From contig JAUZRQ010000002.1 of the NCBI GenBank assembly GCA_030950365.1, forward strand, positions 62,001-126,000: a DNA stretch of 64,000 nt. The letters run 5' to 3'. The number at the start of each line of letters is the position of its first letter. The stretch's first letter is position 1. Below the pieces are notes generated by a model. That model did no database searches. It was not told where the DNA came from and worked only from the letters and a program-made list of their open reading frames with translations. Both the position numbers and the translations under genes were made by a program. This DNA is from Candidatus Zhuqueibacterota bacterium (lineage in GTDB: Bacteria; Zhuqueibacterota; Zhuqueibacteria; Zhuqueibacterales; Geothermadaptataceae). Shown in pieces: positions 20,721 to 33,773 of the stretch.

Positions 20721-21305
20721 ATGATGAAATCGACGACGGACAAAATCCAGCTGGAGAAGAATGCTGATCTGGTCGCGAAAATTGCTGCCGGTGACCGGCA
20801 GGCGTTTTCGCAATTCGTGCTGCAGAATCAGCGCCAGGTGGTGAATCTGGCCTTTCGTATTCTCGGCGATCGGTCGGCTGCCGAGGACATCGCTCAGGAT
20901 GCGTTTTTGCGCGCCTATCATTCGGCCGATCGCTTCCGGGGCGAAGCCAGCGTGCAGACCTGGCTCTATCGCATTACGGTGAATCTGGCGCTGAAACATC
21001 TGCGCAAGCGAAAGTGGGAACGGCTGTTTTCGTTTTTGGAAGCGGAGGAGATCAATCGTTGGCAAACGGAATTGAACCAGCATCCGGATCGACTGGCGGA
21101 AACCGAAGAGGCAAAGCAGTTGCTGCACCGGGCGGTTTTGCAATTGCCCAAGGCGCAACGGACGGTGCTGATCCTGCATCGGTGGGAAGGGCTATCGCAT
21201 AAGGAAATCGCCGATATCATGGGGGTGAGCGTGTCCGCTGTCGAATCGCGATTACATCGCGCCTACAAAAAGCTCGCAACCATTTTGTCCCGGTGGATGA
21301 AATGA
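20721..21305 (+). CDS. ECF-type RNA polymerase sigma factor
   Basis: A 194-residue group-4 sigma factor with only regions 2 and 4. Region 2 includes FRILGDRSAAEDIAQDAFLR and the promoter-melting/-10-binding stretch FRGEASVQTWLYRITVNLAL. Region 4 has LPKAQRTVLILHRWEGLSHK and the helix-turn-helix IADIMGVSVSAVESRLHRA. It is followed 79 bp downstream by a zinc-finger anti-sigma gene and two periplasmic LTxxQ proteins, an arrangement like the CnrH/CnrX and RpoE-type envelope or metal-sensing cassettes. It probably drives its own operon. Confidence 0.94.
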   Translation: MMKSTTDKIQLEKNADLVAKIAAGDRQAFSQFVLQNQRQVVNLAFRILGDRSAAEDIAQDAFLRAYHSADRFRGEASVQTWLYRITVNLALKHLRKRKWERLFSFLEAEEINRWQTELNQHPDRLAETEEAKQLLHRAVLQLPKAQRTVLILHRWEGLSHKEIADIMGVSVSAVESRLHRAYKKLATILSRWMK

Positions 21306-21384
21306 AAGCATACAAAACTTTTCGAAAAATCACCGCAAGGTTTTCCGACCTGGCGGGTCTAAGAGACAGATAGAGGGTGAGAGT

Positions 21385-21846
21385 ATGAAATGCTCGGAAT
21401 TCAAAACGCAGGCATTGCTGCTGATGGACCATCGGCTTAATGATGCGGTGCGCCAGGAGCTCGAAAAACACCGGGAGGAATGCCGCACCTGCTCCGAATA
21501 CGTTGAAAAGCTGGCGCGGGTGTGGCAGGCAGAGTTGCCGGAGCTCGATGCCTCGCCGGCGTTTCGGCAGCGCGTGATGGCACGGCTGCAGAGCGAGTCG
21601 TCGAGGCCGTCGCGGATGGCGGAGCTGTGGGAAGACCGGCTGTTGCCGGCGCTACGTCCGACGGCCCTGGTGATGTTTATGCTGGTCAGTATTTTCCTCG
21701 GTCGGTGGCTTGCCACCCCCACCGCGGCGCTAAACAACAATGGTACAGAGCCCCAGGACATGCTGTCCATCGAGTACTTTGAGACGCTCACGCAGGAATC
21801 CTTGGCGGCGGTGTATTTAAGTCTGGGGGAGGAGACCGATGAATAA
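21385..21846 (+). CDS. Membrane zinc-finger anti-sigma factor
   Basis: A 153-residue protein with an N-terminal zinc-binding anti-sigma domain: Cys3, then H29-x3-C33-x2-C36 (KHREECRTCSEY), the ZAS signature. One predicted transmembrane helix (about 91-109, RPTALVMFMLVSIFLGRWL) is followed by a short periplasmic tail. It should bind the neighbouring ECF sigma factor and hold it at the membrane until a signal arrives. The ATG follows a GAGGG SD. It overlaps the next gene by 8 bp, so the two are probably translated together. Confidence 0.87.
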   Translation: MKCSEFKTQALLLMDHRLNDAVRQELEKHREECRTCSEYVEKLARVWQAELPELDASPAFRQRVMARLQSESSRPSRMAELWEDRLLPALRPTALVMFMLVSIFLGRWLATPTAALNNNGTEPQDMLSIEYFETLTQESLAAVYLSLGEETDE

Positions 21847-22333
21847 AAAGCTCTTCCTGATCCTGCTCGCCGGGCTGACTCTGATCAACCTGAGCGCTTT
21901 CGGATTCTGGATTTATCAGAAGTACAGGCCGCGAGCGGACCGCGTTCACATGATGCCGCACCAGCCGGAGCGGCACCATCTGCGCATGCTGCATCTCACT
22001 CCGGAACAGACCCGGCGGTTCCGGGAATCGCAACGGGCGTTCAGGTGGAAGGCCGATTCCATCTCCCGCAAGATGCGCATCGCCCGGCTCACCTTGATGG
22101 ACGAGTTGCTCAGCGAACAGCCGGACAGCAGCAAAATCGACAGCTTGCTGATGCAGATTTCGAAAAGCCAGTGGTGGCTGGAAAAATTGCTGGTGGACCA
22201 CCTGCTGGCGCAGAAAGAATACCTCACCCCGGAGCAACAGGTGGCCCTGTTCAGGATGATGGAATCCAGATTGAAAGGACATCGAAGAATGGATTTTCAA
22301 AACCGTCTTGGTAATCAACCCAAAAGGAGGTAA
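21839..22333 (+). CDS. Periplasmic LTxxQ-motif sensor/chaperone (CnrX/ZraP/CpxP-like)
   Basis: A 164-residue protein with an N-terminal signal anchor (about 4-27) followed by a helical periplasmic domain. Two LTPEQ motifs (LTPEQTRRF and LTPEQQVALF) bracket long amphipathic helices, the hallmark of the CpxP/ZraP/CnrX superfamily. A His/Met-rich segment precedes the first motif (HMMPHQPERHHLRMLHLT), which suggests metal binding. From its position right after the anti-sigma gene I infer it is the periplasmic input that modulates the anti-sigma, as CnrX does with CnrY. The metal is unknown. Confidence 0.82.
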   Translation: MNKKLFLILLAGLTLINLSAFGFWIYQKYRPRADRVHMMPHQPERHHLRMLHLTPEQTRRFRESQRAFRWKADSISRKMRIARLTLMDELLSEQPDSSKIDSLLMQISKSQWWLEKLLVDHLLAQKEYLTPEQQVALFRMMESRLKGHRRMDFQNRLGNQPKRR

Positions 22334-22338
22334 GCGTA

Positions 22339-22845
22339 ATGAGACTGACATGGATGCAACTCGGCGTGGTACTGACGCTTATGGTGTGGAGCGCAGGACT
22401 CGTTTGGGCTCAGGAAGGCCCGCCTGAAGGCATGCACATGCCCATGATGGGTGCCATGCATGGTAAACACATGGGCGGTTTGCAATTGACCGACGAGCAA
22501 AAAGCGAAAATGGCCGATCTGCGTCTGGAACTGCAGAAAGAGATCGCACCTCTGCGCGCCAAATTGGTTGCGCTGCGGACGGACCTGAAACTGCTTCTGA
22601 TCGAGGATAATCCGAACATGCGCAAGATTGAAGCCAGGCAGAGCGAGATCAGTCAGGTACAGGAGCAGATCAGCCTGGCGCGAGTCCGCCACCAGGTAAA
22701 AGTTCGGCAGATGCTCACACCCGAGCAGCGTAAAAAGTTTGATGTCTTCATTCTGTCGGGCAAAAAAGGCAAACGCGGCATGCATAAACATGCCGGGAGG
22801 CCCGGTCCTCGAATGCATTCCCCACGGGCCCCTCGGGGCAAATGA
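22339..22845 (+). CDS. Periplasmic Spy/CpxP-family protein, Met/His-rich
   Basis: A 168-residue secreted protein with a signal peptide ending at VWAQ (about residue 25). The mature N-terminus is extremely rich in Met and His (GMHMPMMGAMHGKHMGG), then comes LTDEQKAKMADL, a helical hairpin and LTPEQRKKFDVF, as in Spy/ZraP. The basic C-terminus repeats His, Arg and Pro. The family comprises periplasmic chaperones or zinc/copper-responsive proteins. It is the last gene of the sigma operon, starts 5 bp after the previous stop with an AGGAGG SD, and is closed by a strong hairpin. The second LTxxQ paralogue may be the effector while the first is the sensor. Confidence 0.83.
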   Translation: MRLTWMQLGVVLTLMVWSAGLVWAQEGPPEGMHMPMMGAMHGKHMGGLQLTDEQKAKMADLRLELQKEIAPLRAKLVALRTDLKLLLIEDNPNMRKIEARQSEISQVQEQISLARVRHQVKVRQMLTPEQRKKFDVFILSGKKGKRGMHKHAGRPGPRMHSPRAPRGK

Positions 22846-26632: not shown

Positions 26633-27130
26633 TTAACCAAGCACTTCCCAGCTTTCGTTCTCCTGTATCTGGTGTCGCATCAAACTGTTGTACAAAATGG
26701 CAATAAACAATCCCAGAATAAATCCAAATACGAACATTTCCAGCACTCCAAGAACCATACCAAACATGGTGTTGACCGAAAAGTCCGGGAATATCAACTC
26801 GAAAAAGGACAGCACATGTCCGGCCCCGGAAAAAGCCACCAGCAACGAGATGATGAGAAAAATCAGTGCGCTGGCCAGCCCCAGGGCGATGCCAAATTTC
26901 GGCGCGTCAAGCAAGGCACTGTTAAAGCGCGAGCGATCGGGATAGTAATTGTCCGTGGGCGGCGGACCACTTTTAGGATCCGCTTCGGAGAGCATCAAAA
27001 GCGTGGTTTTGGCGGTTGCAGGCTGTTCGCTTTCTTGTGGTTGGGATGGAGCAAGGCTCGGGCCCGGCGGTGGACCGCTCTTTGGGTCTCCTTCATACAA
27101 CTTCATTTTAGTAAGCCATCTGGATAGCAT
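26633..27130 (-). CDS. Small membrane protein with duplicated DPKSGPPP motif and holin-like two-helix module
   Basis: A 165-residue protein, last gene of the CHAT operon, with SD GGGAGG before the ATG. The N-terminal 75 residues are polar and proline-rich and contain DPKSGPPP twice (about 15-22 and 51-58). The C-terminal part has two predicted helices (79-100, 122-147) around HVLSFFELIFPDFSVN. This two-helix module aligns without gaps, over about 75 residues, with the N-terminus of the zincin protein four genes upstream. It shares the H, EL, P, N/G and the G-x3-G...G-x3-G...A..Y pattern. It also recalls small membrane proteins annotated 'bacteriophage holin'. I infer a membrane partner, pore or substrate of the CHAT protease; this is untested. 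Confidence 0.7.
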   Translation of the reverse strand: MLSRWLTKMKLYEGDPKSGPPPGPSLAPSQPQESEQPATAKTTLLMLSEADPKSGPPPTDNYYPDRSRFNSALLDAPKFGIALGLASALIFLIISLLVAFSGAGHVLSFFELIFPDFSVNTMFGMVLGVLEMFVFGFILGLFIAILYNSLMRHQIQENESWEVLG

Positions 27131-27168
27131 ATGAATGCCTCCCGTTTCTGGCGATTCCAGGTTAAGTT

Positions 27169-30165
27169 CTATTCATGCGCTCCCACCAGGATGAATCCCG
27201 CCCAGGCGAAGGGGAACGGATACTGGACGATCGGATCGGATCGCATTTTTTGAATCAGCGCCAGTTGGGCCTGGCGCAGTGCGCCGGCAAAAGTGGCGCC
27301 CGTCTGCCATTTACGGTAGAATTGTACCACCATAAATTGCGTGTATTTGTCATCCAGTTTCCACAGGCTGGTCAGGATCGTGGGAACGCCACCGCGGATG
27401 AACGCCTGAGTGAGGCCAAAAATGCCCTCTCCGCGATACAGGCGGCCGCTGGCCGTTTCACAGGCCGAGAGCGTTACCAGGCGCACGCCGTTGAAATCGA
27501 ATTTCAAGATTTCATCCACTGTCAGCACGTTATCGCTGAAATCCTCGGGCAGCACATCGGCAGAGGAGCGGTACAGCGCCATGCTGGTGGTCTGCGGGCC
27601 AAGCATTAGGTACGAACCCCAGACGTTTTCTTCATTGGCCGCGGCATGGGTGGCAAAATGCAGCACATCAAAGCGATGGCGGATCGCCGCGCGGAAGCGC
27701 GCTTCCGTGGCCTGTGCGCCGATGAACGTGACCGACTTCGAAAACAGGCGCGCAATCTGCCGGACTTCCGATTCGGCGCCTTTCAGGTCGCCTGAGGGAT
27801 TACCGATTGCCAGCAGCTTCGACGCTGGCGTATCGTTCCGCCCGGCCACCTGCTGTCGCTGGCGCATCAGCACGGCCACGCTGGGGGCGTAAGCCAGCGC
27901 GGTTTCATGCAGCCAGTAGCGAGGTCGGTGCGGCTGGCTGGCCGGCAATGGCAGGGCCGCAAACGGCAGGTACGACAGGACTCCATCTGGAATGATATAC
28001 GTGATCTTGTCGGGATGCAATTCCGGCAGAATGGGCTGCACCAGGAGATCATACAATTGCTCACCCAGGGTCAGAGACCGTTCGAAGGTTGCGCGCGGTT
28101 GTTTGCGTACCGCCGCCCTGAACCGGTCCGGGGCATCCGCGCCGATACTGCGCAGAAATTGCGACACGAGCGCTTCCAGCGAATCCCGCTCGATTGCAGA
28201 CTCATGCACCCGCAGCCCCTGCTCATTGAGGATGAAGACCAGCAGTCGGTGGCGGGTGAGTTTGTACTCGAGAATTTGCGCATTTTCGGCAAACCGGTTC
28301 TGCACATCCGTAAATTCCAGGAAACTGGCCGCGAACGGAACGGCGCTGTGGGTTTCCGTGTCAGCGGGATTGAGCATGTCATACAGCGTGCGTGCGCGGG
28401 CGCGTTCGGAGAATTCAAACGCCGTCTGGATGCGATTCTGCCGCAACTGCAACAAAATCATATCGTCGTACACATCCTGAACTGTGGCGAAATAGCTCAT
28501 TTGGGGATCCGTGGAAAGTTGCCGGCGCGTGTTTTCAATCGTGCGGATGGCCAGCGTGTATTCCTGCTCGGCCAAATCGGGCCGTTCGTGCACCAGGTAA
28601 TGCCGGCCACGTGAATAGTAGGCGTTGTAAAGTAACATGGGATCCTGCACTTCTTCTGCCAACTCGACCGCCTCGTCATACCAGTCCAGCGCTTCTTCGA
28701 CGTCATCCATGTGTGCATAGGTATCCGCCAGCCGGATCGTTGCCTGGATTTGCCCTTCTTTGAACCCCTTCTTTTTGAAAATGTCGCGCATACGTTTATA
28801 TTCATTCACGGCTTTCTGCCATTCGCCGCGACGCTGATAGAAATTGCCAATGCCGATGCGGATTTCACCTTCGATGCGGTTGGCTGCTTTTCGCTGGTCG
28901 GGAGAGAGGGCGACGGCCAGCTCATCAAGGGCGCGGCGGTAGTAAATCAGGGCGGTGGAGTCGGCGCGCTCATCAAAATGGATGTCGCCGATGTTTTTCA
29001 GCACCGTGGCGATGCGGTAGGAATCCTTCAGCCCGATATAAATATCCAGCGCCTGAAGGAACTTCGAGCGTGCCTGCCTGTATTGGCCCAGAACGCGGTG
29101 CAAATATCCCATATCCAGCAGCGCCAGCGCCATGTTCTCTCGCGATGGCAGGCGCTCCGCCAGCTCATACGCCTTTTTGTAATAGCGCATGGCCTTCTGA
29201 TATTGCCCCATGCCGCGGTAGAGCAGGCCATAATTGATATAACAAATGAGGATGTCGTAGGGGCTGTTGTTCTTTTTCGCCAGCTCCATGGCTTCGGTGA
29301 GCGAGCTATAGGCGGTCTGAAAATCGCCCATGCGCCGTGCGGCAATGCTAAGACGCTCGAGGATATTAGAGATGGCCAGCTCATCCTGCAGCTCATGCGC
29401 CATTACGAGGCCCTTTTTTAGGTGCTGAGCCGCTTCGGCATAATCGCCGTTGAAAAACAGCGCCGAACCCAGCGCGTGACGTGCCCAAACTTCGCGGTAG
29501 CGATAGCCGTATGCCTGTGCCTTTCGCAGGGTTTCACGAGCCAGTCTGACTGCCTGCGCGTATTTCGAGCCTTTGTAATAGATATATTTCAGTTTCAGCA
29601 GATTGTCCACTTCCCGACGGCGATCGCCGATGTTCTGGCTCAGGCGCAACGACTGCCGATAGTGGTGCGCCGCTACCGCCGTATCTCTGATCAGCGACTG
29701 CTGCCCCTTCTGGTAGAAAATTTCCAGCGTCAGCTTGCGGAGCTGTTCACGTCGGCTCAGCTTGCGGTAAAAATCGATTTCGGCCAGATAAAAGGAATCG
29801 TTCAGCGCGCTGGCGAATTGTTCTGCCAGCCATTCCGCCGTTCGGCGCAAAGGATCGGCCCGATCCAGCTCACCACGGTATTCGTGGTGCAAAGCCTGGC
29901 GCAGGATGCCATGAAAAATCTGGCGGTAGCGAAAGGTGTGGCGCGTAAAAATGGCGCGCGCTTGCGCCTCGTCATCCTGCTCCAGGAACGCATGCAGCGA
30001 ATCATACAGCGCCTGGTCGGCAGGCCGAAGGGCGTCCTTTTCGAAGAAAGAGAAGATGTCCGCTTCTGGCAGCTCCGGCAAACGGCGATGCCACTCATAC
30101 AACCAAAAGGCGACCGCCGCAACAATCAGCAGAATGATCATCGACGCTGTGGTTTTGGTGCTCAT
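27169..30165 (-). CDS. Membrane-anchored TPR-CHAT cysteine protease
   Basis: A 998-residue protein. The start is the ATG at 30165 (MSTKTTASMII), overlapping the stop of the upstream gene as ATGA. One N-terminal transmembrane helix (about 8-23) is followed by a long array of TPR-type helical repeats (roughly 100-560, e.g. LGSALFFNGDYAEAAQHLKK and YGLLYRGMGQYQKAMRYYKK). A C-terminal CHAT domain (about 680-998) follows. The caspase-like dyad is visible: His840 in VLHFATHAA and Cys902 in TLSACETASG, followed by GGVPTILTSLWKLDD. CHAT proteases belong to the separase/caspase clan; in type III-E CRISPR a TPR-CHAT cleaves a sigma-regulating protein. Here the operon contains a sigma/anti-sigma pair but no cas gene is seen. 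The topology is ambiguous: charges flank both sides of the helix. Confidence 0.92.
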   Translation of the reverse strand: MSTKTTASMIILLIVAAVAFWLYEWHRRLPELPEADIFSFFEKDALRPADQALYDSLHAFLEQDDEAQARAIFTRHTFRYRQIFHGILRQALHHEYRGELDRADPLRRTAEWLAEQFASALNDSFYLAEIDFYRKLSRREQLRKLTLEIFYQKGQQSLIRDTAVAAHHYRQSLRLSQNIGDRRREVDNLLKLKYIYYKGSKYAQAVRLARETLRKAQAYGYRYREVWARHALGSALFFNGDYAEAAQHLKKGLVMAHELQDELAISNILERLSIAARRMGDFQTAYSSLTEAMELAKKNNSPYDILICYINYGLLYRGMGQYQKAMRYYKKAYELAERLPSRENMALALLDMGYLHRVLGQYRQARSKFLQALDIYIGLKDSYRIATVLKNIGDIHFDERADSTALIYYRRALDELAVALSPDQRKAANRIEGEIRIGIGNFYQRRGEWQKAVNEYKRMRDIFKKKGFKEGQIQATIRLADTYAHMDDVEEALDWYDEAVELAEEVQDPMLLYNAYYSRGRHYLVHERPDLAEQEYTLAIRTIENTRRQLSTDPQMSYFATVQDVYDDMILLQLRQNRIQTAFEFSERARARTLYDMLNPADTETHSAVPFAASFLEFTDVQNRFAENAQILEYKLTRHRLLVFILNEQGLRVHESAIERDSLEALVSQFLRSIGADAPDRFRAAVRKQPRATFERSLTLGEQLYDLLVQPILPELHPDKITYIIPDGVLSYLPFAALPLPASQPHRPRYWLHETALAYAPSVAVLMRQRQQVAGRNDTPASKLLAIGNPSGDLKGAESEVRQIARLFSKSVTFIGAQATEARFRAAIRHRFDVLHFATHAAANEENVWGSYLMLGPQTTSMALYRSSADVLPEDFSDNVLTVDEILKFDFNGVRLVTLSACETASGRLYRGEGIFGLTQAFIRGGVPTILTSLWKLDDKYTQFMVVQFYRKWQTGATFAGALRQAQLALIQKMRSDPIVQYPFPFAWAGFILVGAHE

Positions 30166-30554
30166 CTCCGTTCTTTTTCCCTCGCCTGTCTTTTGAAATG
30201 CGATTTCAGCCAGAGACTCAGCAAACCGAAAATGGATTTCAGCGCCTGGCCCGAAGGTCGGAAGGCCAGCGCTCGAAACTCCAGTGCCCGTTTTTGCCCC
30301 TGCACCCAGCGTGCATGGATGGCATCGAAATTGGGAAGCCAATCCTGACGAAATTTGCGGATTTCTTCTAAAAGGTCATCGGGCGGCCCGGGGCGAGCCG
30401 GTTGCTGACCTTTTTGGGGTGCATAATGGGTTGCAAAAAACAATTGTGTCAGCAAGCGCTCATATTCCAGCAGTTTTTGTGCGGTCAGACCGCGGCGACG
30501 ATGCTCCGGATCGCGCAGCAGCGCCTGGCGCAATTTGGGATGCATGGGAGACAT
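30162..30554 (-). CDS. Uncharacterised 130-residue protein of the CHAT operon
   Basis: A basic, probably helical and soluble protein starting MSPMHPKLRQALLRDPEHRR at 30554; the longer frame to 30626 would run back into the zincin gene. The N-terminal half is rich in Leu, Arg and Gln with a linker QKGQQPARPGPPDD, the middle has DLLEEIRKFRQDW, and the C-terminus ends in a strongly basic tail (KSHFKRQAREKERR) after a hydrophobic patch (SIFGLLSLWL) that might touch the membrane. I do not recognise a family. Its stop overlaps the CHAT start by 4 bp, so it is co-translated with the protease and could be an adaptor, inhibitor or substrate. Confidence 0.65.
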   Translation of the reverse strand: MSPMHPKLRQALLRDPEHRRRGLTAQKLLEYERLLTQLFFATHYAPQKGQQPARPGPPDDLLEEIRKFRQDWLPNFDAIHARWVQGQKRALEFRALAFRPSGQALKSIFGLLSLWLKSHFKRQAREKERR

Positions 30555-30573
30555 GATTGGGTTTCCGGTCTGG

Positions 30574-31851
30574 TTAACTGCCTGGACGATTGATTTTAAC
30601 CAGCAACTTGTCGTAAAGAAAATCAAAAATCAGCTTGTCGTAGTGGTAATCGAAGTAAGCGATATCCATAATGCAGGACGAGCTCATTTTGGGGCGCTCG
30701 GCAACGTAGGAAGTCCAGTCGGTCGGTTTGTCGCTGCGGTAGCGGTCGGAATAGTACAGCACGGCTTCGGAACCAGGCCCCTGATAGGTCGCATACACAT
30801 CGGGCACGGGGTCCGTTGGATGCAACCGCCGTTTGCGATTGATGACGAATTGCAATAGGCTTTCGGTGCTACCGGCATACTGATCGAGATATTCGTCGAT
30901 AATGGCGCCGTTCTCCAGTGAAGACAGCGCATGCGCGAATTCGTGCAGGGGTGTTTTCAGCCGGTCATCCCATGCGGATAGCGCCACCACCCCAGGAACG
31001 GCCGCTTCAAACGCGTGCTGTTTTTCTGTGAGCGGTCCATCGGCGGTTTCACTGAATGTGAACTTGAAAGTACGGCCATCCGGTCCGTCCACCGTAAACC
31101 GAGCTGCGGAGCGGGTCAGCTTTTCTGAGGCGGAAATGACGAAAATCACGTCCGCATAGTGGATGCGCCGGTCATGGTCGCTGGTGCTTTTTACGAAATC
31201 CGCAACCAGGGCGCTATTCAGACGCGGCGCCAGAATATGATCGATGTCGGAGATCGACTCGCACAGCGCATTGGCCTCCTCCAATGCCGTACGCGTGGTA
31301 TCGAACAGCGTGATGATGCGCATGCGCCGGGCGATTTGCGGCAGCCGCAACAGCTCGTTATTGGCAAAACTCCGCAAAACGCGCAGTACCGTGCGGTAAA
31401 ATACCACCGGGTTGCTTAAAATGGTGTCGGCTTCAAATCGGCTGTCCCGGGGATGTGCAATAACTGGATTGGCCACGAACACCACAGTAAATGGCCGGGC
31501 GCCGCTGCCTTCCTGAAATACATTGATTTTGCGAGATGGATCGAGCTGAAAAATTTGCCGGGATGCGGCATGCAAATGCCGGCTGACCAGGCAGCCGTAA
31601 ATCCAGGCAACGAGATAGCCGAACACAAGGCCGTAAATCAAACTCCAGAAAAGCCCTGCAATAAGCCCCACCACATTGAGGCGGTATCCCGGATAAATGA
31701 TTTCATACAACTCCGTGAAAGTGTGAACAGAGGAACTGGCCAGAGCGGTAAGCGTGACGATGAGCACGGCAAAGGCATTGAGTAGGGCACACGTTAACCC
31801 CAGCACAGGCGGGCGAAAAAAGAAGACCTGTGACACCTTGCGAATCTTCAA
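30574..31851 (-). CDS. Membrane protein with HExxH zincin motif (peptidase M64-like)
   Basis: A 425-residue protein from a TTG start at 31851 (LKIRKVSQV) preceded by GGAGG; the ATG at 31869 lacks an SD and would put that GGAGG inside the gene. The N-terminal two-helix module (about 17-38 and 59-88) is related to the small last protein of the operon. The soluble part contains TPLHEFAHALSSL (303-312) followed by IIDEYLDQY, matching the zinc-binding pattern HExxHxxx..DEY of family M64 (IgA-peptidase-like). A later SSSCIMD (about 390-396) may be the Met-turn region. I infer a membrane-tethered metallopeptidase; with divergence this high it could be inactive. It lies in the middle of the operon, 19 bp before the next gene. 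Confidence 0.68.
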   Translation of the reverse strand: MKIRKVSQVFFFRPPVLGLTCALLNAFAVLIVTLTALASSSVHTFTELYEIIYPGYRLNVVGLIAGLFWSLIYGLVFGYLVAWIYGCLVSRHLHAASRQIFQLDPSRKINVFQEGSGARPFTVVFVANPVIAHPRDSRFEADTILSNPVVFYRTVLRVLRSFANNELLRLPQIARRMRIITLFDTTRTALEEANALCESISDIDHILAPRLNSALVADFVKSTSDHDRRIHYADVIFVISASEKLTRSAARFTVDGPDGRTFKFTFSETADGPLTEKQHAFEAAVPGVVALSAWDDRLKTPLHEFAHALSSLENGAIIDEYLDQYAGSTESLLQFVINRKRRLHPTDPVPDVYATYQGPGSEAVLYYSDRYRSDKPTDWTSYVAERPKMSSSCIMDIAYFDYHYDKLIFDFLYDKLLVKINRPGS

Positions 31852-31924
31852 GGAAGGGCCTCCTACCATTGTAAATAGGCAACCGATCGGCTGTAAACGT
31901 CCCCTGGGGGTGGAATCTCCAGAT

Positions 31925-32911
31925 TTATTGTTCTTTCAGGCGTTCCAGGTGCATGCGCGCGATTTTGCTCCAGTTGGAATCGGAATCTAATTTAAGATAA
32001 GCTTCCCAGGTTGCAAGCGCTTCCTGACGAAATTCAGGAAAATGCTGATAGACCATGGCGAGATTATACAGAGCTTCCTTGAGATCGGGTTGATACTTGA
32101 GCGCCTTTTTAAAAAATGGGATGGCACTTTTGCATTCAGAGCGTTTCCATTGAAGAACGCCAAGGTCGTTGTAAACCGATGCCAGCGTGGAATCGATGCT
32201 CAGGGCTTTGGTGTAAAACATTTCTGCCTGTTCTGGATTGCTCTTGAAGCAAAGATAATATGCTCCAAGCAATTGATAGGCTTCCGCATTGCGAGGATTG
32301 AGTTCGATGGCCTTTTTGAGGCTGACCACCCAGGGAGCTTCGCTTTCGCTGGATGCACCACGCGTGATGCCGAATTCGGCATATTCGAATCCGCCGGAGG
32401 GACGTAAGGCTTCGCGATCGCTGATGGCCAGTTTCTCGGTCATCAGGAGGCGGCTCTGGTTAAGTAGGGATGTGCTTTTCCCGTGTTTGTAAGCCGGTAT
32501 TCCCCAGATGACCACAATCAGCACGATGGTTGCCAGCGCTGCTGCCCAGCGGAGCCCAGCATCGGGGGAGAAAAGCCAGTGGCAGATTTTCACAAGCGGA
32601 TTGCGAGTACGTTTGGCCTTGTCGGGTTTTGGGGGAGGAAACAGACGGTCAAGTATGTGGGAAGCATTGAGGGACGGATGATCTTCAAACTCTTTTAGGA
32701 TATCGTCGAGATTCTCCTCGGTCTGGATTTGATGAAAGTAAAGGATAGCTGTATGTCGGCACAGGTCGCATCGGTTGAGATGCCGAAAAACCTGGTTAAC
32801 TGCCGATTCATCGAGTTCCCTGTTGAAGAATCGAATCAAAACGTCTTCGTCAAGGTGCCTGGAACCATTTGGGCCTTCCGAATCCCTGAAGTGTTTGATG
32901 TTCCGACTCAT
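31925..32911 (-). CDS. Zinc-finger anti-sigma factor with transmembrane helix and TPR domain
   Basis: A 328-residue protein starting MSRNIKHF at 32911; the longer frame to 33013 lacks support. The N-terminal anti-sigma domain has His19 and H44-x3-C48-x2-C51 (RHLNRCDLCRH), the ZAS zinc motif. A proline-rich linker leads to one helix (about 121-139, LRWAAALATIVLIVVIWGIP). The C-terminal part (about 180-325) has three to four TPRs such as AYQLLGAYYLCFKSNPEQAE and VYNDLGVLQWKRSECKSAIP. By standard anti-sigma topology the TPRs would face the periplasm. It lies 184 bp downstream of the sigma gene and 73 bp upstream of the zincin gene, so it should control the sigma factor in response to something bound or cleaved there. 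Confidence 0.85.
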   Translation of the reverse strand: MSRNIKHFRDSEGPNGSRHLDEDVLIRFFNRELDESAVNQVFRHLNRCDLCRHTAILYFHQIQTEENLDDILKEFEDHPSLNASHILDRLFPPPKPDKAKRTRNPLVKICHWLFSPDAGLRWAAALATIVLIVVIWGIPAYKHGKSTSLLNQSRLLMTEKLAISDREALRPSGGFEYAEFGITRGASSESEAPWVVSLKKAIELNPRNAEAYQLLGAYYLCFKSNPEQAEMFYTKALSIDSTLASVYNDLGVLQWKRSECKSAIPFFKKALKYQPDLKEALYNLAMVYQHFPEFRQEALATWEAYLKLDSDSNWSKIARMHLERLKEQ

Positions 32912-33095
32912 TAATCTAACCTGATCAGTTTGTATATTTTGGCTTTTCCGTTCATTGTAGTTCGCGAGTAGGGCACCAATGGATTTAGCCCACTTTTGGA
33001 ACCCGATGTGCACTTATTAGTGCGACCAAAGCGAAATTGCAACACAATTTTGTTGACACTGATTAAGATATGATTTATCCGGATTTTTCCCGAAA

Positions 33096-33773
33096 TTAAG
33101 GTCTGATCCCCCGAGATTGCAGACATTGCCGAACTTTTTCCTTCAATTCGCTGATCAGATTGGAGACCCGCTTCTCTGTCAAATCGATACCGGCAAAGGC
33201 AGTGATGCTGGGAACATCCATGCCTTCAAATATATATAAATAAAAAATTAATCGATCGCGTTCCGGCCTCCGCGAACCGGTGGTGCTTTTCTCCAGGCAA
33301 TATTCAACCTCTTCCCGAAGTTCTGCAAATTTGGTGGTTTCGCCAAAGGTGGCTTCGGGAATGAGCTCCTGCCATCCCCTTGGCTGATCCTGATCGAATC
33401 CGTTAAAAGGCTCATCCATTGAAAAAATCCCCCCTTCTGGTGAGCGTGACTGTGACGTAATTGAATTGAAATCGTACAGCACGATCCGAATCGAGATCAC
33501 CCGCAACCATTCGAAAATGGTATTCTCATATTGGCCTTTGTATCCCCTTAATGCCTTTCCGTCCTTTTCCAGTAGCTTGACATACACGTTGTGGACGAGA
33601 TCCTCGAGTTGGTGCAGCCCGCGACGGTACGGAATCTTCCGGCAGGTTCGGATGATAACAGATGTAATAAATCGATTGAAGCGCCTATGAAATTCTTCCC
33701 ATCCATCTCGGTCATCCAGGTTATTGGCAAGGTAGCTAATCAGGGCGTTATGACTGAGTTTTGAAATATCCAT
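33096..33773 (-). CDS. ECF-like sigma factor of the CHAT operon (divergent)
   Basis: A 225-residue sigma-70-family protein from the ATG at 33773 (MDISKLSH); the TTG at 33806 is an alternative. Region 2 reads LEDLVHNVYVKLLEKDGKAL followed by RGYKGQYENTIFEWLRVISI, as in ECF sigma factors. A long acidic linker leads to a region-4-like helical end with FEGMDVPSITAFAGIDLTEK and RVSNLISELKEKVRQCL. It is longer than usual and divergent from the ECF factor at 20.7 kb. Heading an operon with a zinc-finger anti-sigma, it should direct transcription of the CHAT genes, but I could not identify a target promoter upstream. Confidence 0.83.
   Translation of the reverse strand: MDISKLSHNALISYLANNLDDRDGWEEFHRRFNRFITSVIIRTCRKIPYRRGLHQLEDLVHNVYVKLLEKDGKALRGYKGQYENTIFEWLRVISIRIVLYDFNSITSQSRSPEGGIFSMDEPFNGFDQDQPRGWQELIPEATFGETTKFAELREEVEYCLEKSTTGSRRPERDRLIFYLYIFEGMDVPSITAFAGIDLTEKRVSNLISELKEKVRQCLQSRGIRP

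Follow-up and report, generated by a model that had tools for sequence, protein, structure and literature searches.

Closest described systems

Among the described systems closest to the locus presented here, the TPR-CHAT protein Csx29 of the type III-E CASP/Craspase systems (Csx29, Csx30 and CASP-sigma) acts in an RNA-guided complex, and the M64 (IgA-type) peptidases, such as the T. ramosa IgA peptidase and BF3526, are, to our knowledge, secreted. Csx29 cleaves Csx30, a sigma inhibitor (PMC10028731). Proteolysis of a membrane anti-sigma factor is established for RseA, which DegS/RseP cut on the periplasmic side first and then again (cited in PMC10028731), and in the EACC2-caspase/ECF sigma/DUF1822 neighbourhoods a caspase-fold peptidase lies beside an ECF sigma factor and a TPR protein (PMC8195603). 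In Myxococcus xanthus, DdvS-DdvA (PDB 8rot and 8rw5) pairs an ECF sigma factor with a membrane anti-sigma factor, DdvA, which is listed as a CHAT-domain protein and whose one-polypeptide layout (anti-sigma domain, transmembrane (TM) segment, TPR and CHAT) is read here from PDB titles, fold match and length.

The operon described in the following lies in a window (the whole stretch analysed, 64,000 nucleotides) from a Candidatus Zhuqueibacterota bacterium, a member of a phylum about which little is known. With DdvS-DdvA it shares an ECF sigma factor and a membrane anti-sigma factor, and DdvA is the best PDB fold match of its TPR-CHAT model (E 2.4e-17); however, its zinc-motif anti-sigma factor and its TPR-CHAT protein are encoded by two genes, unlike the DdvA-type layout, and a zincin, a 130-residue protein (p130) and a two-helix membrane protein are added. 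With the Craspase systems it has in common a TPR-CHAT protein with matching His and Cys residues, an ECF sigma factor and a sigma inhibitor, whereas it contains no RAMP/Cas7-11 gene, its CHAT protein is membrane-anchored and predicted to be exported, the inhibitor is a different one and a zincin is present in addition. The M64 peptidases are the closest solved folds of this zincin and share with it HExxH and a following Asp, but the window protein is predicted to be tethered to the membrane on the cytoplasmic side, is not matched by PF09471 and comes together with p130. The protease families are unrelated to DegS/RseP, and neither a PDZ domain nor an intramembrane protease was found in the operon; the EACC2-caspase neighbourhoods differ in caspase-fold family and partners, and no M64-like zincin is described there (PMC8195603). 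Finally, other loci of the phylum (L103, L106, L107, L112 and others) combine an ECF sigma factor, a zf-HC2/TPR anti-sigma factor and a TPR-CHAT protein, i.e. three components also present here, frequently with the order unchanged, but no zincin, p130 or two-helix gene was found beside them, their CHATs belong to a separate lineage and their anti-sigma factors lack the RxSGG motif described below.

No earlier description of the operon was found in the open-access literature, most subscription papers being outside the scope of the search, and it is apparently undescribed. Since zincin-less ECF sigma/anti-sigma/CHAT loci are common and its CHAT model resembles DdvA and Csx29, we regard the operon as a novel form of sigma signalling linked to CHAT, in which the addition of the zincin, p130 and the two-helix protein is what is new.

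Gene layout

All six genes proposed in the initial annotation are present at the positions given there, as minus-strand open reading frames within 26633-33773 of the window. In the order of transcription, the features are:

33096..33773, minus strand: divergent ECF-type sigma factor, 225 aa (TIGR02937 and SigH/SigE profile match)
31925..33013, minus strand: membrane anti-sigma factor with N-terminal zinc motif (HLNRCDLC), one TM segment (residues 156-174) and C-terminal TPRs (TPR Pfam matches)
32759..32782, minus strand: HLNRCDLC (residues 78-85), zinc anti-sigma motif of the HxxxCxxC type
32387..32404, minus strand: RPSGGF (residues 204-209), conserved juxtamembrane motif on the periplasmic side and candidate site for cleavage or recognition by CHAT
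30574..31869, minus strand: M64-like zincin of 431 aa, 2TM hairpin at the N-terminus (AlphaFold model, PDB fold matches)
31564..31812, minus strand: holin_4-like 2TM hairpin of the zincin, residues 20-102, predicted N-in, C-in
30889..30945, minus strand: zincin active site HEFAH...G-A-I-I-D-E-Y (H309, E310, H313, D325), invariant in the alignment of homologues
30162..30554, minus strand: p130, small helical protein, 130 aa, with a conserved N-terminal MxPLHP...YExLL domain; predicted cytoplasmic adaptor
27169..30165, minus strand: TPR-CHAT protein, 998 aa, with N-terminal signal anchor (PF12770); predicted periplasmic
27460..27648, minus strand: CHAT catalytic dyad, His840 to Cys902 (homologue alignments; profile alignment with Csx29)
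26633..27130, minus strand: two-helix membrane protein, 165 aa, with a long N-terminal tail predicted to be cytoplasmic (DUF5676/holin_4 sub-threshold); conserved downstream of CHAT
27065..27088, minus strand: tail motif copy 1, DPKSGPPP
26951..26980, minus strand: tail motif copy 2, DPKSGPPPTD, candidate protease site (P57 invariant and D60 nearly so in the alignment)

The intergenic distances from the sigma to the two-helix gene are 82, 55, 19, -4 and 38 nt, and the only true ATGA overlap (4 nt) is the p130/CHAT junction; one of the two ATGA-type or near overlaps originally proposed thus stands and the second does not. The region 20721-22845 of the window contains another ECF-like sigma reading frame (194 aa, plus strand), upstream of two small LTxEQ-repeat proteins that resemble Spy/CpxP-type periplasmic proteins.

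Conservation, distribution and co-inheritance

Within the phylum sample of 82 searchable genomes, the zincin query found a match in 23, five of them only through a 2TM protein, which leaves about 18 with a true zincin. Gene neighbourhoods and a search through 84,980 species genomes placed relatives in KSB1 and Calditrichota metagenome-assembled genomes (MAGs), in one Brocadia MAG, where the copy is possibly a mis-binned contig, and in Nostoc, as a divergent relative. Three copies of the operon are found in one Calditrichia genome and two in another. Presence is patchy within genera: in one genus (g4), two genomes carry the operon (L033 and L034) and two well-assembled ones (G076 and G077) have no zincin, which indicates recent gain or loss.

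Sixteen loci had enough contig on both sides to be counted as complete and were annotated by profiles. The zincin, p130, CHAT and two-helix genes occur together in all 16, the sigma gene in 15 and a recognizable anti-sigma gene in 14, and the exact order sigma, anti-sigma, zincin, p130, CHAT, two-helix is kept in 13 (in L066 with p130 fused to CHAT); the non-co-occurrence that had been named as counter-evidence was therefore not found. The exceptions are a permuted order (L071), several sigma genes with no recognized anti-sigma gene (L054) and a locus with neither sigma nor anti-sigma gene (L040), and truncated loci agree with the operon as far as their sequence goes. As a separate observation, several divergent sigma-like genes and two membrane proteins of 412 and 420 aa precede the zincin operon in L054 (2805-8564) and look like duplicated sigma/anti-sigma sets. 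Recurrence in about two dozen loci with non-conserved flanks puts the gene set beyond chance, as expected for the single conserved unit originally claimed. The flanking genes encode ordinary surface or metabolic proteins that are not shared between relatives apart from secretion-tail domains, and a wider conserved operon was rejected on this account.

Co-inheritance is also visible in protein distances. Across 12 loci, and with species relatedness left in, the correlation is highest for zincin and CHAT (r=0.83), the tightest co-varying pair of all, followed by zincin-p130 (0.74), CHAT-p130 (0.71), CHAT-two-helix (0.70), CHAT-anti-sigma (0.65) and zincin-anti-sigma (0.60); values as high were obtained in 0 of 2000 permutations for zincin-CHAT, zincin-p130, CHAT-two-helix and CHAT-anti-sigma. 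Sigma distances in the same 12 loci correlate weakly and non-significantly with those of the other operon proteins (r ~0.1), so that the sigma factor is taken to be saturated, fast-evolving or exchangeable. The operon CHATs form their own lineage, one branch (SH-aLRT 98) separating 21 of them from 21 other CHATs of the phylum in a quick tree with long branches. The gene set is thus conserved and largely co-inherited, and both catalytic sites, as described below, are conserved. A sigma gene and/or a zf-HC2/TPR anti-sigma gene adjoins CHAT in at least nine of about 19 further CHAT loci that were inspected, and CHAT-linked ECF signalling is therefore recurrent in the phylum.

The sigma/anti-sigma pair

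The features of an ECF sigma/zinc anti-sigma pair are present, namely sigma region 2 and region 4 homology and an HxxxCxxC motif ahead of one TM segment. The sigma factor matches TIGR02937 at 8.8e-10, slightly below the NCBIfam cut-off; 15 of 18 homologues match this family, and the profile built from the homologues matches the solved SigH and SigE structures (3e-10 to 1e-9), in keeping with the original assignment as ECF-like. The proposed membrane ZAS anti-sigma factor with TPRs was likewise borne out, HLNRCDLC, TM segment and TPRs all being found.

Most zincin-operon anti-sigma factors carry R-[LP]-[SA]-G-G-[FY], or a close variant, some 20-40 residues past the TM segment, and the RxSGG-type motif is absent from the nine other CHAT-linked anti-sigma factors of the phylum that were compared. 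This conserved juxtamembrane motif, R-[LP]-S-G-G-[YF], is a candidate cleavage site. Like the tail motif of the two-helix proteins, it was spotted by eye in alignments, and either the zinc motif or the RxSGG motif is missing in some operon anti-sigma factors.

The TPR-CHAT protein

The TPR-CHAT protein matches PF12770 at 1.3e-62 (212 bits against a cut-off of 24) and TPR families, and has His840 and Cys902 where they had been placed. These residues correspond to the Csx29 His and Cys in a profile alignment and are invariant in alignments, the dyad being retained in every operon CHAT that covers the site; its loss in most homologues, named beforehand as an adverse outcome, did not appear. The structural model (pLDDT 88.1) matches DdvA, Csx29 (3.3e-17) and separase in the PDB. 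In PDB sequence searches the profile of the whole protein was swamped by TPRs and the single CHAT domain gave no phmmer match, whereas the domain profile retrieved Csx29 as the best TPR-CHAT chain (1.4e-6).

All topologies considered here derive from hydropathy and charge. The N-terminal charges of the window CHAT are ambiguous (one K/R on the left and two on the right), so its topology rests on homologues: lipobox-like N-termini occur in operon CHATs of L048 (LFVLGC), L054 (IAAISGC) and L071 (CVLSGC), less clearly in L067 and L068, and signal peptides or lipoboxes can be seen by eye in most of the phylum's other CHATs. CHAT is accordingly predicted to be in the periplasm, and p130 and the zincin in the cytoplasm, so that the membrane would probably lie between the two proteases. 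A very long open frame (~2,500-2,900 codons) that ends in CHAT, possibly a conserved giant CHAT protein, is also present in many genomes of the phylum, often as a single copy.

The zincin and the two-helix protein

The M64-like HExxH membrane protein of the initial annotation is upheld by fold, HEFAH and the 2TM hairpin both being found. The zincin matches neither PF09471 (M64) nor any other Pfam family, no Pfam M64 match occurs in 16 members, and a PDB profile search yielded nothing usable; the likeness came from the fold search, in which the five best PDB matches of the AlphaFold model (pLDDT 85.8) are all M64 peptidases at E 1e-4 to 3e-3, BF3526 and the IgA peptidase of T. ramosa among them. 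As the TM-scores are 0.33-0.37 by query length, the modelled relationship is remote but specific. HExxH and the Asp are kept, in the pattern HEx[AGTV]H...D, in every operon zincin that covers the site. When soluble relatives are aligned, H309, E310, H313, G321, D325, Y327 and D329 stay invariant and E326 varies, and D325 is therefore the likely third metal ligand.

The first 100 residues of the zincin and the two-helix protein are related 2TM hairpins: both match NF037947 (holin_4) below threshold, and the queries cross-match each other's homologues. The hairpin reaches 9.5e-14, and its helices appear in the AlphaFold model; the two-helix protein reaches 7.4e-8, and 5.5e-5 with DUF5676. The curated cut-offs are not attained (51.7 and 32.8 bits against 70 for holin_4, and 24.4 against 27.6 for DUF5676). 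The zincins have at least two TM segments, flanked by positive residues on the N-terminal side, and the TM flanks of the two-helix protein are positive on the side predicted to be inside; by this hydropathy reasoning both the zincin domain, predicted to be a membrane-tethered cytoplasmic enzyme, and the two-helix tail are placed inside. The tails carry G-[GP]-P-P-x-T-D or G-G-G-P-[ED]-D-D-P, duplicated in the window, L121, L035 and L040, and this cytoplasmic Gly/Pro-Asp motif is a further candidate cleavage site.

p130 as a putative adaptor

No Pfam, NCBIfam or PADLOC family matched p130. In two loci (L040 and L066) it is fused ahead of TM-TPR-CHAT (p130 profile 1.6e-10 and 1.2e-12), with a single TM segment between the two parts and K/R residues on the p130 side, so that p130 would be inside and CHAT outside. 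In addition, a short protein with a YERLL-type stretch is encoded directly 3' of zincins that are soluble and lack TM segments, both in Nostoc and on a plasmid of Bradyrhizobium, with no CHAT there; the zincin-p130 pairing is thus seen without CHAT in two other phyla. From the p130-CHAT fusions and the p130-like proteins behind soluble zincins, p130 emerges as a natural coupler of both proteases, and we infer that it couples CHAT and the zincin. This link, the probable separation of the proteases by the membrane and the frequency of ECF sigma/anti-sigma/CHAT loci in the phylum all go beyond the initial annotation.

The soluble two-gene pair, a zincin followed by a short p130-like reading frame, is scattered and rare (Nostoc linckia, L062:8815-10192; Bradyrhizobium elkanii plasmid, L123:5947-7113), and Rhizobium ruizarguesonis (L124) has a broken copy. 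On both rhizobial plasmids (L123 and L124) the zincin adjoins the same three genes, for two FAD enzymes and a thiamine-pyrophosphate enzyme, in differing orientation. In the Nostoc order, the zincin is found in one of 196 genomes, the Nostoc genome itself, and the soluble form is therefore rare there. In a p130 homologue of L049 (3430-4770), the conserved N- and C-terminal regions are separated by a large insert made up of repeated domains.

Proposed proteolytic signalling across the membrane

The preferred reading of the operon is that of a proteolytic route by which signals cross the membrane. In particular, a probability of roughly 45% is given to an ECF sigma module spanning the inner membrane, with proteolysis on each of the two sides as its switch. 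The anchored TPR-CHAT protein would face the periplasm, where its TPRs may sense a partner or an envelope signal; once active, it would cut the periplasmic juxtamembrane segment of the anti-sigma factor, likely at or near R-[LP]-S-G-G-[YF]. Cytoplasmic p130 would couple CHAT to the membrane-tethered M64-like zincin, which may cut a target in the cytoplasm; the likeliest substrates are the freed anti-sigma factor and the two-helix protein, at its Gly/Pro-rich tail. The sigma factor would then be released, while the two-helix protein would be switched on or off within the membrane. Such a scheme would follow the logic of two-site anti-sigma proteolysis by DegS/RseP, with unrelated proteases. The specific relay, in which periplasmic TPR-CHAT and cytoplasmic zincin, coupled by p130, together dismantle the anti-sigma factor and process a membrane effector, is put forward tentatively.

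Two-sided proteolysis is supported by conservation, co-variation, the dyad and zincin sites, the M64, DdvA, Csx29 and separase folds, topology, the occurrence of p130 behind soluble zincins in two other phyla and the motifs. Against it speak the sigma distances, the locus without sigma and anti-sigma genes (L040), the permuted one (L071), the ambiguous CHAT N-terminus and the motif gaps in anti-sigma factors.

Alternative explanations

Envelope-stress control in the style of DdvS-DdvA, with TPR-CHAT as the periplasmic sensor partner of the anti-sigma factor and with the zincin, p130 and the two-helix protein as co-regulated output or a quality-control protease, is the alternative that survives best, although it is rather unlikely. 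It would account for the transmembrane anti-sigma factor DdvA topping the PDB matches of the CHAT model, for the frequency of zincin-less ECF sigma/anti-sigma/CHAT loci in the phylum and for the zincin-p130 pair occurring alone elsewhere; it fits poorly with CHAT and zincin co-varying most tightly of all pairs, with the fusion of p130 to CHAT and with the presence of the four core genes in all 16 complete loci, including the sigma-less L040, which points to a functional core rather than a loose output.

A gasdermin-like membrane-damage or death module, in which a protease cuts the tail of a holin-like two-helix protein that then permeabilizes the membrane while the sigma pair sets the dose, is improbable. 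The holin_4 resemblance of both hairpins, the conserved and repeatedly duplicated tail motif and the patchy presence among relatives are compatible with it, but the holin_4 scores are below cut-off, the name itself is an annotation, and similar 2TM proteins elsewhere (L050 and L051) adjoin housekeeping genes. Moreover, PADLOC matches within the operon were limited to a generic TPR one in CHAT and a weak one to LeoA (E 0.03), ten flanking proteins of related loci gave none, and no relatives of the operon were found among INPHARED phages or in IMG/VR; both a defence island and viral carriage were rejected. Of the single proteolytic signalling or defence circuit initially suggested, the conserved unit with two intact protease sites and a sigma/anti-sigma pair stands, whereas the defence part is unsupported, there being no PADLOC system in operon or flanks, ordinary neighbours and no phage or viral relative.

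Craspase-like defence, in which CHAT proteolysis of the anti-sigma factor or p130 answers nucleic-acid sensing, is very improbable: the remote relationship of CHAT to Csx29 by profile and fold and the cutting of the sigma inhibitor Csx30 by Csx29 are outweighed by the lack of any RAMP (PF03787, Cas7-type) match in the organism's own, 95%-complete genome, which agrees with the absence of cas7-11 first claimed, by an anti-sigma factor that is a zinc-motif/TM/TPR protein, by ordinary flanks and by a CHAT predicted to be periplasmic, so that Craspase identity was rejected and the close analogy to RNA-guided Csx29 drawn at the outset was not supported.

Implications

If the relay were true, it would give a fold like that of the IgA peptidases an intracellular signalling role and would mean that two-site anti-sigma proteolysis has evolved in a second way. 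More generally, CHAT proteases, known from CRISPR and separase biology, would gain a place in signalling from the envelope to transcription, and an intracellular use of an M64-like peptidase is suggested. By naming short motifs as candidate cut sites, the analysis makes a family of unannotated proteins testable in E. coli, and it shows CHAT-linked sigma signalling to be widespread in the KSB1/Calditrichota lineage.
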